In this document: positions 40,102 to 54,565 of the stretch, one piece after another
How positions within the stretch are numbered: position 1 is the stretch's first letter
Layout: every line of letters begins with the position of its first letter
Source: Lachnospiraceae bacterium
GTDB taxonomy: Bacteria > Bacillota > Clostridia > Lachnospirales > Lachnospiraceae
Assembly: GCA_017622845.1 (NCBI GenBank)
Contig: JAGAQJ010000008.1
Coordinates: 1-62,080, forward strand
DNA length: 62,080 nucleotides
Reading direction: 5' to 3'
Program-made: the position numbers and the translations under genes
The notes under the pieces: model-generated
Database searches by the model: none
What the model saw: only the letters and a program-made list of their open reading frames with translations
What the model was told of the DNA's origin: nothing

Positions 40102-42183
40102 ATGAAAAGTGCAAAAAAAGAAGTGACATGTTATACAAACAGAGAATTGTCATGGCTGCAGTTTAATGAAAGAGTTTTAAATGAGGCAGGCAATGCAGGC
40201 GTTCCGCTGGCAGAGCGCCTTACCTTTGCAGCGATTTTCCAGAGCAATCTTGATGAATTTTTTATGGTCCGCGTAGGCACCCTGATGATGCAGATGAATT
40301 CGAAGAATGATATTCGGGAAAATAAAACAGGCATGACGAGCGAGGAGCAGGTGTCGGCGATTTTGAAGCAGGTCGTGGTATTGGAGAAAAAGAAGGCAAA
40401 GATATACGAACAGCTGATGGGAGAGCTGGAGCCGCATGGTATTCGAATCATCAATTTCAATAAATTATCCAATGAGGAGGGAAAACTGCTGGAGCAGTAC
40501 TTTGATGCACATATTGCTCCATTTCTGTCGCCGATGATTATCGGAAAGCAGCAGCCGTTTCCGTTTTTGGAAAACCGGCAGCTCTTTGCCATTATCCTGC
40601 TGACAAGTCAGAAAGGGAAGAAAAAGACGGGAATTGTCCCCTGCTCAAACAGCGTTTTTAAAAGGCTGATTGAAATTCCGACAAGACCCGGCTGTTTTAT
40701 GCTTTCTGAGGAGCTGATATTGCATTTTGCGCCCAAATTATATCCCAAATACAGCATCAGGGAAAAGGCAATTATGCGTGTCACCAGAAACGCAGACATT
40801 GATGCGTCAGAAATGTATGATGAGGATATGGATTACCGCAGCATCATGGAGCTTATGATTAAGCAGAGAAACCGCCTCAATCCTGTCAGAGTAGAGCTGA
40901 GCCGCACCATCAACAGTAAGGCAAAGAAAGAACTGTCGCAATTTCTGGAGATTGGCTTAAACCACATTATTAATGTAGAGACGCCGCTTGACCTTTCCTT
41001 TGTCTATGCCTTGCAAAATCATCTGAGGGAAAAAACGGAATTATTTTACCCCAAACGCAGTCCGCAGCTTAGCCCCAGCCTTAATAATAAAGAAAAGATT
41101 CTTGCGCAGGTTGAGAAAAAGGATGTACTGCTGTCCTATCCGTATGAAAGCATGAAACCATTTCTTAAGATGCTTCAGGAGGCAGCGGAGGACGAATCCG
41201 TTGTTTCCATAAAAATGACGCTTTATCGGGTTGCAGAGCGGAGCAAGGTGATTGATGCACTTGTGGAAGCAGCAGAAAACGGCAAAGAGGTTGTGGTGCT
41301 GGTGGAGCTTCGCGCGCGCTTTGATGAGGCAAACAATATTGAGATGTCTCACCGGTTAGAGGACGCCGGATGCCGTATTTTGTACGGACTTGGGGAATAT
41401 AAGGTGCACTCCAAGCTGTGCCTGATCACAAGGGCGAATCAGGACGGATATTCGTATATCACACAGATTGGAACCGGAAACTACAATGAAAAGACGTCAA
41501 GATTGTATACAGACCTGTCCTTCATTACGGCAAATCCGGAAATCGGAGCAGAGGCGGCAAAGGTATTTACCGTTTTGCAGCAGGGAGAGGTGATGGAGGA
41601 AACCGCGCATTTGCTTGTGGCTCCCAAATGCCTGCAGAATAAGGTGGCTGCCCTGATGGATGACGAGATTGCAAAGGTTCAGAACGGCGGTGAGGGTTAT
41701 ATCGGAATCAAAGTCAATTCTCTTACGGATAAGGTTCTGATCGACAAGCTGATTGAGGCTTCTAAGGCAGGCGTCAGAATCGAGCTGATTGTGCGCGGCA
41801 TCTGCTGTCTAAAGCCCGGTATCAAAGGACTGACAGAGAACATTACGATTATCAGCATTGTCGGACGCTTCCTGGAGCATTCCAGAATTTACCGTTTCGG
41901 AACCGGTGAAGAAGAAAAAATATACATTGCATCCGCTGACTTTATGACCAGAAATACGACCAAACGTGTAGAGGTTGCCGTTCCGCTTTGGGACGAGAAA
42001 ATCAAAAAGCGCGTGAGGGAAATGTTTGATATTATGATGAAAGATACCGAGAAGGGTAAGCTCTTAGACGCACAGGGAAATTACAATGACCGCGGAAAAG
42101 AGGACGCAGAAAAGCTGAATTCGCAGGAATTATTCTACCAGCAGGCGTATGACAGCAGGATTGAAGACAGCAGCGAGCTGTAA
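40102..42183 (+). CDS. ppk: Polyphosphate kinase 1
   Basis: Makes and degrades polyphosphate from ATP. The 693-residue length is full. The catalytic histidine lies in LGEYKVHSKLCLI, and the second phosphohistidine region is in GRFLEHSRIYRFG. IGTGNYNEKTSRLYTD and ASADFMTRNTTKRVEVA are further PPK1 landmarks. AAGGAG lies a long 15 bp before the ATG. Confidence 0.95.
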   Translation: MKSAKKEVTCYTNRELSWLQFNERVLNEAGNAGVPLAERLTFAAIFQSNLDEFFMVRVGTLMMQMNSKNDIRENKTGMTSEEQVSAILKQVVVLEKKKAKIYEQLMGELEPHGIRIINFNKLSNEEGKLLEQYFDAHIAPFLSPMIIGKQQPFPFLENRQLFAIILLTSQKGKKKTGIVPCSNSVFKRLIEIPTRPGCFMLSEELILHFAPKLYPKYSIREKAIMRVTRNADIDASEMYDEDMDYRSIMELMIKQRNRLNPVRVELSRTINSKAKKELSQFLEIGLNHIINVETPLDLSFVYALQNHLREKTELFYPKRSPQLSPSLNNKEKILAQVEKKDVLLSYPYESMKPFLKMLQEAAEDESVVSIKMTLYRVAERSKVIDALVEAAENGKEVVVLVELRARFDEANNIEMSHRLEDAGCRILYGLGEYKVHSKLCLITRANQDGYSYITQIGTGNYNEKTSRLYTDLSFITANPEIGAEAAKVFTVLQQGEVMEETAHLLVAPKCLQNKVAALMDDEIAKVQNGGEGYIGIKVNSLTDKVLIDKLIEASKAGVRIELIVRGICCLKPGIKGLTENITIISIVGRFLEHSRIYRFGTGEEEKIYIASADFMTRNTTKRVEVAVPLWDEKIKKRVREMFDIMMKDTEKGKLLDAQGNYNDRGKEDAEKLNSQELFYQQAYDSRIEDSSEL

Positions 42184-42202: not shown

Positions 42203-42231
42203 TTGTAATTTTGTTTTCGTTAACGTATACT
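42203..42231 (+). promoter_or_regulatory. Promoter of the ATPase-protease operon
   Basis: TTGTAA (42203-42208), exactly 17 bp, TATACT (42226-42231). It starts 20 bp after the ppk stop, so the three-gene cassette is an independent transcription unit. Confidence 0.65.
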
Positions 42232-42327
42232 GAATATATAGCCGTTCCTGGAGTGATCAGCATGAAAAATTTATGCAGTTTACTGCAGGAATTAGGAGCA
42301 GGAGATGTTTCAGCAAAGGAGCGAGAT

Positions 42328-43371
42328 ATGAAAATAAAAAGTATCGAATTGAAGAATTTTAAATGTTTTAAAGACAAGATACTGGATTTAAGTATCCCGG
42401 AAACAAATGATGTACAGTCAACCTGCATATTGGTTGGAACAAATGGTTCCGGAAAATCTTCTATTTTAAAAGCAATTGTTGCAGTAATGACAGGGATAGA
42501 CCAAAGATATGCAGGGGATATGTTAAAAGATACCGATATCTATTTTGATGCTCCAGGCTTGGAAATAAAACTGACAGTTATGCTTAACGAGAACGAAAAA
42601 AATGTACTGCAGCAAGATAACAATGTGATGGAAGCGATATATATTTATGAGAGAGGAGCAGAGCAAGCCATACTTCAATGCCCGCAGGGAGTGAATCAGG
42701 ATAATTATAAAAAAATGCTTCAAACAATCGAAAAGGATATGCGCTTGGGAATTGTAATGTATTATGATCCGTTTCGGTTTATCTCAGGAAGAAAACCGGT
42801 GGGACCTAAACTTCAGCTGGAGAAAGATGCTAAAAGCAATGCTCTGCAGTCCAACATTTTGTCAGAGGGAAATAATGCATTTCGTGACATGGAACTGAAG
42901 CAGTGGATAATCAATATGGATTACCAAAGGCTAAAAAAAACATCTTCCAAAAATGAAATAATTTTCGAGCAGATGATAAAAGCGTTTGATATCTTGATGC
43001 ATCCGTTGAAGTTTCAGTGCATTGACGAAGAAGGCGCAATTATATTCAGAGATGAAAAAGAGTCTAAGGATATTGCGTTAGATATGCTTAGCGATGGTTT
43101 TAAAAGTGTTTTTTTTATTGTGATTGATATCATCAGACGATTGTCATTAGCGGAAGCTTTTGAAGACGAGGCCTTTTATATGAAAGAGGCAGTGATACTA
43201 ATTGATGAGATTGACTGCCATATTCATCCCAAATGGCAGAAAAAGCTGCTGCCTTCCCTGCGAAAACTGTTTCCGAATTGTCAATTTATCGTAACTACAC
43301 ATTCTCCATATATATTAGATGGAATACCGGATTATTCAATAAAAAAGATAGGTGAGAAACAGATTATATGA
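42328..43371 (+). CDS. SMC/OLD-like ABC-type ATPase of a three-gene putative defence operon
   Basis: A 347-residue protein beginning MKIKSIELKNFKCF as in RecF/OLD/AAA_15-type ATPases. Walker A is GTNGSGKS (37-44), the ABC-like signature DMLSDGFKS lies near 255-263, Walker B is VILIDEIDCHIHPKWQ (Asp293/Glu294) and the H-switch TTHSP has His325. The roughly 210 residues between Walker A and the signature carry no long coiled coil. AAAGGAGCGA fixes the ATG at 42328. An in-frame ATG at 42262 with TGGAGTGAT would add 22 residues. The stop overlaps the next start by ATGA. Base composition is AT-richer than the flanks. The likely role is a sensor/switch subunit of the system (inferred). Confidence 0.88.
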   Translation: MKIKSIELKNFKCFKDKILDLSIPETNDVQSTCILVGTNGSGKSSILKAIVAVMTGIDQRYAGDMLKDTDIYFDAPGLEIKLTVMLNENEKNVLQQDNNVMEAIYIYERGAEQAILQCPQGVNQDNYKKMLQTIEKDMRLGIVMYYDPFRFISGRKPVGPKLQLEKDAKSNALQSNILSEGNNAFRDMELKQWIINMDYQRLKKTSSKNEIIFEQMIKAFDILMHPLKFQCIDEEGAIIFRDEKESKDIALDMLSDGFKSVFFIVIDIIRRLSLAEAFEDEAFYMKEAVILIDEIDCHIHPKWQKKLLPSLRKLFPNCQFIVTTHSPYILDGIPDYSIKKIGEKQII

Positions 43372-43796
43372 TAAGTGGAGCAACTGTTAGAAAAATAGAG
43401 GTTTGTTGGCAATATTTTTCTGTTAATGATGAACCAATTAAAAAATATTCTGACAAGTTTGATGTGGAGGATGAAATTCATGTCAATGAGATTATGTCAA
43501 AAAAAGAAGCAGTTGCTTTTATAGAAACGATGGATGAGATTGAACAGACAGAATTTTCAGAGCTAAATGTTTCTGTGGAGCCATTGGATATCACATGTGT
43601 AGAGGATTTCACAGATGAAAAGGTGTTTATTACAGCTAATGAGAGAATTTGCGGATGGCTTTTTCAATACGATGCGCTCCCTTTTGCAAACTGGTATCAT
43701 GACTGTTGCTATTATTTTGTGGTAAATGAAACGTGTTATTATAAAGTCAGGAGCAGGCGCGGATTGAGTGACAGCATTAAAATGGAAAGCGTTTAA
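43368..43796 (+). CDS. Unknown small protein between ATPase and caspase-like protease
   Basis: 142 residues, no signal peptide or TM, no recognised domain. It is acidic in the first half and rich in aromatic residues and Cys near the end (WYHDCCYYFVVNETCYYKV). It overlaps the ATPase gene by 4 bp (ATGA) and lies 12 bp before the protease start, so all three are cotranslated. By position it could be an adaptor, inhibitor or substrate of the protease. No HNH or other nuclease motif is present. Confidence 0.78.
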   Translation: MISGATVRKIEVCWQYFSVNDEPIKKYSDKFDVEDEIHVNEIMSKKEAVAFIETMDEIEQTEFSELNVSVEPLDITCVEDFTDEKVFITANERICGWLFQYDALPFANWYHDCCYYFVVNETCYYKVRSRRGLSDSIKMESV

Positions 43797-43808
43797 AAGG
43801 AGATGCAA

Positions 43809-44552
43809 ATGGGAAAGTATGCAATTCTGCTCTCAGGCGGAGTGAGCTATGGGCATAATTATATACGATATAAGAATGATTTGGAACTCGCCTATAAGGC
43901 ACTAAAAGATGCAGGAAACTTTAGTGATGAAAATATTTATCTTTTTTTTGCAGATGGGCACAAACAGTTTGAAAATACCCAATTGACTGTTTGTGCTGCA
44001 AAAAAGAACAAAATTCAGGATTGTCTTAAAAGGATGATACATGAACTGAGTGAGGAAGATGAACTGGCGCTGATAGTTAGTAACCATGGAGGGGATGAAG
44101 AGAACGGAACAATTTGCTTATGGGGTTCTGAAAGGATTGAACTTTGTTTGCTTGCGGAATGGCTGAATCATATAAAGGCAAAAAAGATTATAATTTTAGG
44201 ACAGTGTTTTGCTGGTAACATTTTGGAATATGAAATTTCCAATGCATGTGTATTTACCGCAAATGAACAGGGGGCATTATCCTATGCACATATGACAAAG
44301 ACAAATCGGAGCTGTTTATATGATGAGTTTATCTACCATTTTTTCTCTTACATCATCGGCTGCTATCCTGACACAGGCAGCCGGATACCACAGGGGAGTA
44401 ATGATTTGATGCAGGCATATCAATATGCAAAGGATAATGACATTTTTAATCCTGATAATCAGCAGCGGTTAAAAATTAAAATAGAAGGGGAATGGATAAC
44501 AGAGATACCGCAAGTAAAAAATGATTTAGCGGATAACGTGCTAAGATTATGA
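43809..44552 (+). CDS. Legumain/caspase-like (C13-type) cysteine protease
   Basis: A 247-residue caspase-fold peptidase. The N-terminus (KYAILLSGGVSYGHNYIRY, then NDLELAYKALKDAG, then ENIYLFFADG) follows the legumain pattern. The catalytic His93 is in LALIVSNHGGD after a hydrophobic strand and Cys133 in IIILGQCFAGN after the next strand, 40 residues apart as in C13/caspase enzymes. There is no signal peptide, so it is cytosolic, unlike eukaryotic legumain. The ATG at 43809 is 6 bp from AAAGGAG; the ATG at 43803 abuts it. Cotranscription with an SMC-like ATPase suggests a regulated, possibly suicidal effector. Confidence 0.85.
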   Translation: MGKYAILLSGGVSYGHNYIRYKNDLELAYKALKDAGNFSDENIYLFFADGHKQFENTQLTVCAAKKNKIQDCLKRMIHELSEEDELALIVSNHGGDEENGTICLWGSERIELCLLAEWLNHIKAKKIIILGQCFAGNILEYEISNACVFTANEQGALSYAHMTKTNRSCLYDEFIYHFFSYIIGCYPDTGSRIPQGSNDLMQAYQYAKDNDIFNPDNQQRLKIKIEGEWITEIPQVKNDLADNVLRL

Positions 44553-44553
44553 A

Positions 44554-44606
44554 GGCTGTCCAAATGCTTGAAAAAGCAGAGGGCTGCTTTTTTAATTCGG
44601 ACAGCC
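44554..44606 (+). terminator. Nested terminator of the ATPase-protease operon
   Basis: The inner hairpin AAAAAGCAG-AGGG-CTGCTTTTTT (44571-44593) is enclosed by a second stem GGCTGTCC / GGACAGCC. It lies directly after the protease stop and isolates the cassette from acpP. Confidence 0.88.
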
Positions 44607-44680
44607 GTAAGACAATAAGTCAGCTTCTTCTAACTAATTATAAACAGAAAATAAAATCAAAAATAAAATCCCAAAAGCTG

Positions 44681-44709
44681 TTGACATCTTTGCGACTTAG
44701 GGTTATTCT
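44681..44709 (+). promoter_or_regulatory. Promoter of the fatty-acid cluster
   Basis: TTGACA (44681-44686), 17 bp, TATTCT (44704-44709). It lies about 215 bp before acpP and directly upstream of the operator array. Confidence 0.65.
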
Positions 44710-44724
44710 GTAGCAAGTAAATAC

Positions 44725-44769
44725 TTTGAAAGTCAAAATATTTGAGATTCAAAACTTTTGAGAATCAAA
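44725..44769 (+). promoter_or_regulatory. Three tandem FabT-like operators at 16-bp spacing
   Basis: TTTGA-AAG-TCAAA (44725-44737), TTTGA-GAT-TCAAA (44741-44753) and TTTGA-GAA-TCAAA (44757-44769). All are perfect inverted repeats with a 3-bp centre, starting exactly 16 bp apart, just downstream of the predicted transcription start. The half site matches the TTTGA..TCAAA of FabT (MarR family) boxes in lactic acid bacteria and streptococci. The regulator is probably the protein at 54089-54565. Confidence 0.75.
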
Positions 44770-44924
44770 ATAATCGAATGGCAGTTTCAGGTATTGAAGC
44801 ATAAGGGAACTGTTCAGGACAGCGTACTGGCGCAGTATCGTGAAATAAGATACTGAACCGTTACCGTATCAGTGAAATCAAAAGAAAGAAAAAATTTATT
44901 CAAAAATGAAAGGATGGAAAAATC

Positions 44925-45158
44925 ATGTTAGAAAGAGTAAAGGAAATCATCGAGGAGCAGTTAAATGTTGAGGGCGTAGAGATTACAGAGGAGACACGCT
45001 TTAAAGAGGACTTAGAGGCAGATTCCCTTGACTTGTTTGAGCTTGTTATGGCATTCGAGGAAGAGTATGGTGTAGAGATTCCTTCTGAGGATTTAGAGAA
45101 GATTACAACCGTTGGTTCTGTTATCAAGTACATGCAGGATAAGGGCGTTAACGCTTAA
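44925..45158 (+). CDS. acpP: Acyl carrier protein
   Basis: A 77-residue acidic carrier protein. The phosphopantetheine attachment serine is Ser34 in [21 protein letters not shown] precedes the ATG. It is first in the fab cluster, behind the operator array. Confidence 0.97.
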
Positions 45159-54088: not shown

Positions 54089-54565
54089 ATGATGGAAATG
54101 GTGGGCAGCATGGAAAAAACGACTAGCAGGACATTAAATGAATTATTAGTGAAGCTTTTTAACAATGTGATGGATACAGAAGAAAAGGCGATTATTACAG
54201 AGGAATATAAGGATATCACGAACAATGACATGCATATCATAGAAGCAATCGGCATAGAGGAACCGCGGAGAATGTCTGACATTGCCAAGCGCCTTGATGT
54301 AACCATGGGAACGCTGACCACCAACATGAACAGCCTTGAGGATAAGGGCTATATTATCAGGGAGCGGAGTACAGCAGATAAGCGCGTCGTTCTGGTAGTG
54401 CTGACACCCAAGGGTAAAAAGGCTTTTTACCATCACAGGGATTTCCATAAAAATATGATTAAAGCGATTGTAAAAGATTTAAATGAGGATGAGATGAAGG
54501 TCATGATAAAGTGCCTGCTCAACCTCAATCAGTTTTTTAAAAAGCTGGAGCATGAAAACGAGTAG
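54089..54565 (+). CDS. fabT: MarR-family regulator, FabT-like
   Basis: A 158-residue MarR-type winged-helix protein: RRMSDIAKRLDVTMGTLTTN as recognition HTH, then the beta-wing DKGYIIRERSTADKRVVLVVLT. Location next to fabH and the triple TTTGA-N3-TCAAA array before acpP make it the likely repressor of the cluster, as FabT is in streptococci with acyl-ACP as corepressor. Starts at 54089 or 54110 are possible; GGTGGG precedes the second. The last codons lie in a terminator shared with the convergent gene. Confidence 0.82.
   Translation: MMEMVGSMEKTTSRTLNELLVKLFNNVMDTEEKAIITEEYKDITNNDMHIIEAIGIEEPRRMSDIAKRLDVTMGTLTTNMNSLEDKGYIIRERSTADKRVVLVVLTPKGKKAFYHHRDFHKNMIKAIVKDLNEDEMKVMIKCLLNLNQFFKKLEHENE

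Follow-up and report, generated by a model that had tools for sequence, protein, structure and literature searches.

A PtuA-type ATPase encoded with a predicted caspase-fold protease: a putative immunity or suicide module in a Lachnospiraceae bacterium

The question raised by this locus is whether three adjacent genes of a Lachnospiraceae bacterium form a defence or suicide system in which an ATPase controls a protease. The window, meaning the whole stretch of DNA analysed, is contig C60 (62,080 nt) of a 3.6 Mb source genome (G000). The cassette is flanked by ppk, which ends at 42183, and by a fatty-acid operon led by acpP, which starts at 44925. The ppk assignment is supported by Pfam; the acpP and fab names are our reading of the ORFs. 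The interval from ppk to acpP contains just three ORFs, all on the + strand. The features of the cassette are as follows.

42203..42231, + strand: promoter-like site TTGTAA-17-TATACT, matching 9/12 consensus positions.
42328..43371, + strand: gene for a PtuA-type ABC/SMC ATPase of 347 aa, assigned from the ORF and from PADLOC, PDB and profile comparison.
43368..43796, + strand: gene for a middle protein of 142 aa, assigned from the ORF and from a homologue at the equivalent place in L034, a locus of an Oscillospiraceae MAG.
43809..44552, + strand: gene for a predicted caspase/legumain-fold protease of 247 aa with His93 and Cys133, assigned from the ORF and the predicted fold.
44554..44606, + strand: nested hairpin, likely a terminator (fold -28.1 kcal/mol, z -4.97).

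An ORF check placed the originally predicted coordinates correctly to within a few bases. The three genes had been described as coupled, and both junctions are present in the ORFs. The ATPase stop and the middle-gene start overlap in the four bases ATGA, and the protease ORF begins at 43809, 12 bases past the middle-gene stop, behind AAAAGGAG. The ATPase start at 42328 has AAAGGAG upstream and aligns with the starts of its relatives in L034 and in genome G111. The GC content of the cassette is 0.361, compared with 0.449 +/- 0.027 for contig stretches of the same length, which places it in the lowest 0.4%. The three genes have 35–37% GC versus 46–47% for ppk and the fab genes, in agreement with the claim that the cassette is AT-richer than its flanks.

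The first protein had been assigned to the RecF/OLD/AAA_15-type ATPases from its motifs. These motifs are readable as described: Walker A GTNGSGKSS, signature LSDG, Walker B VILIDE and H-loop TTHSP. The Pfam matches, AAA_15 and AAA_21, are in keeping with the broad assignment, and the closer name is PtuA type. Among the best 25 of 178 PADLOC models reaching E 1, 24 were PtuA and one was a retron I-A ATPase; the best PtuA match had an E value of 9.5e-56. The nearest PDB structures were the retron Ec83/Ec78 ATPases (E ~1e-23 to 1e-22) and other PtuA proteins. PtuA-like ATPases were found in 14/120 family genomes, at 19 loci besides that of the source contig, and G111 and G027 were fetched for their wider neighbourhood. 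G111 alone has six such matches (L031, L022 and L024-L027), which is unusual among the 120 genomes.

The ATPase differs from longer PtuA proteins at its C-terminus. When four members of its subfamily were compared by hhalign with six longer PtuA-type proteins, the probability was 100 and the alignment ran up to column 346/446, so the part of PtuA that follows the H-loop is absent from the subfamily. The proteins from the source contig, G111 and L034 end at nearly the same place. By profile comparison, the ATPase is of the PtuA type without the last ~100 residues of PtuA. This C-terminal part of PtuA reportedly has a role in holding PtuB. Of the six comparison loci, three (L036, L037 and L038) encode a PtuB-like protein in the next gene, and Pfam recognised an HNH domain in both PtuB-like proteins tested (L036 and L037). 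Neither the middle protein nor the protease of the cassette had an HNH match or profile similarity to the three PtuB-like proteins.

The third protein had been proposed as a C13 legumain-like protease with a caspase fold. His93 (SNHGG) and Cys133 (GQC) are at the positions first numbered, and a medium-confidence model, built on two sequences and poor after about residue 150, gives a caspase/legumain fold, so a clan CD protease is predicted. The His and Cys motifs align, with weak scores, with those of 6azt and GSU0716. Equivalents of both residues are conserved in L034, and they occur in separate pieces of L033, a locus from another Bacillota MAG; the two residues match the catalytic pair of this fold and are predicted to serve as such. 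The gathering score of PF01650 (Peptidase C13) is 22.8 bits. The L034 homologue scored 28.9, one L033 piece 17.1, and the source protease gave no match. Peptidase C13 enzymes cleave after Asn or Asp. In the alignment, Arg20 of the source protease falls opposite the arginine of RHQAD in 6azt, which has a role in the S1 pocket. Examined by eye, the N-terminus seems to carry no obvious export signal.

Searches of plasmids, phages, viral contigs and genome contigs returned no close relatives of the protease. Several weaker matches were set aside. The match in G238, another genome of the family, is to a large protein at 1087-3204 of L002 on the - strand, in which Ig-like repeats and a part resembling a caspase were read by eye; we regard it as a distant cousin. 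The weak matches in G193, G594, G470 and G381 look like chance. Those in G650 and G662 fall within frames of 730 and 529 aa.

The middle protein had no family match in Pfam, PADLOC or the other profile searches. PHROGs returned a single weak 'transposase' match (E 0.003), a label that we do not trust, and the structure model was unusable (pLDDT 32). The source and L034 proteins have in common an initial MIxxA and, close to the C-terminus, FANWxHxC. No similarity to the PtuA-type or PtuB-like proteins compared was detected. Viral contigs contained no relatives. Two weak matches among the 294 other genomes of the order lay in frames with stops and were discounted.

Do the three genes occur together elsewhere? 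A two-sequence ATPase alignment was scanned against the genome contigs collection, which gave seven loci, one of them (L035) the contig of G111. In L034 all three genes follow one another in the order of the source contig, with the same ATGA overlap; identities are 36–41% for the ATPase, 29% for the middle protein and 35% for the protease. The trio is also present in L033, where its genes are interrupted by frameshifts, stops and N's; this copy is either decayed or poorly sequenced. Its protease matches the source protease with an E value of 7e-24, and its middle protein is recognisable only by eye. In G111 the ATPase (44% identity) is followed by an apparently truncated AAA-ATPase_like gene and by neither trio partner. 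L102, a record of the viral collection among the matches listed, encodes an ATPase with 35% identity, 154 bases downstream of what reads as a serine integrase; the record ends at the ATPase and its partners cannot be judged. Among the matches listed, the subfamily comprises five known loci: two with an intact trio (the source included), one broken, one without partners and one unjudged. The expectation that the genes stay together holds for L034 and, in broken form, for L033, but not for G111. Judged by gene order and homology, the trio is not a chance neighbourhood.

The searches also returned other ATPase loci. L036, L037 and L038 encode the longer PtuA-type proteins, each followed by its PtuB-like protein, and L039 encodes a more distant ATPase. 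Further ATPase matches came from Deinococcus, Hymenobacter (H4) and a phage record (H5). The proteins behind plasmid ATPases of Spirosoma and Sphingomonas had no HNH match in Pfam.

The surroundings differ from locus to locus. L034 (1-13209) also encodes a Bro-N/ANT phage antirepressor, an AAA ATPase and a DUF6414 protein near the second intact cassette. A weak TIR-like (ThsB) match (E 0.008) was found in the same surroundings, where PADLOC matches are weak; this is perhaps a mobile or defence region. The L033 copy stands among genes that we read as polysaccharide genes. Ten flanking proteins of the source contig were ordinary transport, regulatory and metabolic proteins by Pfam, so the source contig does not look like a defence island.

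The distribution of the cassette is patchy. Each species is represented by one genome in the collections, and the searches covered samples of these. Within the genus, 1/38 genomes encodes the protease, namely the source, and 0/37 others do. At E <= 0.001, 3/250 family and 3/291 class genomes gave a match, as did 5/392 order genomes at E <= 0.01; these samples overlap, and in them only the source genome has the real protein, the rest being weak matches. The ATPase subfamily was found at E <= 1e-35 in 1/391 class genomes, a weak negative with five candidates scored per genome shown, and in 1/11 genomes of the genus of G111. FabK was found in 35/38 genus genomes, and 29 loci besides that of the source were read upstream of acpP. 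The trio was absent from all 29, up to ~1.2 kb upstream; the best match there (E 0.004) was a P-loop match in an ABC protein and was rejected. Ten loci were inspected and have several different genes upstream of acpP, one of which is shared by L076, L077 and L083. A fixed position in the core genome, which would have told against the original prediction, was not seen: in the genomes compared, the cassette is accessory. None of the three outcomes that were named as telling against the original prediction (homologues that stay apart, a fixed core position, no caspase fold) was observed, and the original interpretation is supported in part. The neighbouring ppk (40102-42183) is itself patchy, with a match in 27/40 genomes, and besides the source only G882 (90%), G875 (54%) and G895 (58%) exceed 40% identity. 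The source genome has a second ppk copy at 38% identity.

The right edge of the insertion could be placed by blastn against the 29 genus loci. Homology to the region upstream of acpP in the relatives starts at ~44608, just past the hairpin. This region is kept in 27/29 loci (matches within 44608-44804); the remaining two, L080 and L082, run into contig ends. Leftward of 44608-44804 none of the 29 loci matched the contig, and this pattern puts the right edge near 44608, just after the terminator. At the left junction, the contig of the closest relative ends inside ppk. A repeat scan for insertion marks found a single pair of 13-base repeats, located at 42265 and 44890, with 12/13 positions alike. 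It was taken for chance because homology with the relatives already begins at ~44608. No tRNA genes were found in the window.

The cassette had also been described as having its own promoter and a nested terminator. The site TTGTAA-17-TATACT is indeed at 42203, but its function as the cassette's own promoter is unproven because promoter-like sites are no commoner in the contig (12) than in shuffles (10.3 +/- 3.5 expected). The hairpin at 44554-44606 is real, since 0/200 shuffles fold as well; it was not among the sites listed by a simple terminator scan.

Two adjacent TTTGAG-TCAAA palindromes lie at 44740-44771, upstream of acpP, in the region kept in 27/29 genus loci. The pattern is modestly above chance (4 matches versus 1.4 expected). 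A gene for a MarR-family regulator is found downstream, at 54089-54565. The palindromes and the regulator may together be a FabT-like operator–repressor pair for the fab operon.

The cassette was compared with known systems. It resembles Septu (PtuAB) in its PtuA-type ATPase and in having the ATPase first in a short operon, but it lacks the PtuA C-terminal region and the HNH nuclease and has instead a middle protein and a caspase-fold protease. In Septu, ATPase mutants and HNH mutants each abolish protection (PMC13096335). Group I-A retrons (Ec78/Eco7, Ec83) supply the PtuA proteins that are the closest solved structures to the cassette ATPase, but Pfam finds no reverse transcriptase among the three ORFs and the cassette has no HNH partner. 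For retron Eco7, PMC11555353 describes growth arrest and depletion of a tRNA by PtuA and PtuB together and not singly. The protease shares a predicted fold, the SNHGG and GQC motifs and the aligned arginine with Peptidase C13/legumain, metacaspases and GPI8 (clan CD). It differs from them in scoring below the family thresholds, in having no obvious export signal and in having a gene that shares an operon with that of an ABC-type ATPase.

PMC12799240 reports caspase-family proteases in several antiphage systems: canu, CRISPR type III, gasdermin, NLR and Thoeris. The canu locus described there resembles the cassette as a three-gene antiphage-type locus with a caspase-family protease. No nuclease family was found in the trio, and the cassette accordingly has no counterpart of the MBL-fold nuclease of canu, while it has an ABC-type ATPase. 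The caspase-like effectors in the accessible text of PMC7159879 belong to other NTPase systems.

Among the papers listed in searches of the literature, which excluded most subscription papers, none was recognised from its title and the opening of its abstract as describing this gene set; nor was a paper found that brings Septu, PtuA and caspase together. The ABC three-component (ABC-3C) systems of Krishnan et al. 2020 are said to combine an ABC ATPase, a middle component and a separate effector, and may already include something like this cassette. The middle protein, which has few relatives and no usable model, gave no match at E 1 to a middle-component domain in Pfam, nor any Pfam match above weak chance level.

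We propose that the cassette is an accessory module for immunity or suicide, acquired by horizontal movement, which operates in the manner of Septu but delivers proteolysis, and give this reading a probability of about 0.55. The PtuA-type ATPase would be both sensor and oligomeric platform, recognising a sign of phage infection or damaged nucleic acid. It would then act on the middle protein, which would bridge to or restrain the caspase/legumain-fold protease in the cytoplasm. The freed protease would cleave proteins of the host or of the phage, halting either the cell or the phage. The output would have been exchanged, with proteolysis in place of nucleic-acid cutting and with the middle protein and protease in place of PtuB. 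The defence role, trigger and target are presumed, as is control of the protease by the ATPase. Support for this reading comes from the PtuA likeness, the L034 trio and the broken L033 copy, the predicted caspase fold with its weakly aligned His and Cys motifs, the AT-rich composition and patchy distribution, the serine integrase beside the L102 ATPase and the antirepressor near the L034 copy. Counting against it are the single intact copy besides the source and the one broken copy, the lack of partners in G111, the position of the source copy outside a defence island as far as its ten flanking proteins show, the weak PADLOC matches around L034, the limited quality of the protease model and the unusable model of the middle protein. 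That the cassette represents an undescribed class of immune system, with a Septu-type ATPase driving a legumain-type caspase-fold protease via a dedicated middle protein, is a tentative claim to which we give somewhat less than even odds.

Within a defence setting, the middle protein could instead be a toxin or precursor that is switched on by caspase-fold cleavage. Caspase-activated pro-nucleases are reported, in nuclease-protease pairs and canu loci (PMC12799240), and the middle gene shows translational coupling and stays with that of the protease. Against this, the protein has only 142 aa, matches no nuclease or other enzyme family and has nothing beyond the distrusted PHROGs match, and we consider this model unlikely; for the middle protein we favour a role as adaptor or inhibitor. 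Quite unlikely, too, is a role outside defence, in which a PtuA-type ATPase would serve regulated proteolysis, a stress response or addiction. It would suit the ordinary flanking proteins of the source copy and the spread of PtuA-like ATPases through the family, such ABC ATPases serving many purposes, but defence is the better fit because the cassette is rare, patchy and foreign in composition and because phage-type genes stand beside two of its relatives.

The cassette might also be what is left of a decaying Septu system, its truncated PtuA lying only by chance next to two unrelated genes. The ATPase does end where the PtuA C-terminal region begins, and the G111 neighbour and the L033 copy read as damaged. 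The intact trio of L034 largely refutes this idea. The ATPase ends alike in three genomes, and in two distant ones its stop is coupled in the same way to the middle gene, with the protease conserved behind; a remnant is very improbable.

In the cassette the protease stands where a DNA-cutting partner is usual, and the whole looks like a putative bacterial suicide or immunity switch. If the proposed module is real, its protease with legumain-like motifs would join the caspase-fold effectors of bacterial immunity, and the PtuA-type ATPase platform would be one that exchanges effectors. In their title, Li et al. 2024 call the PtuA–PtuB oligomer inflammasome-like. A relative of PtuA with a caspase-fold protease under its control would come closer still to the inflammasomes of animals: an ATPase platform known from a nuclease system would have become an inflammasome-like activator of a protease.
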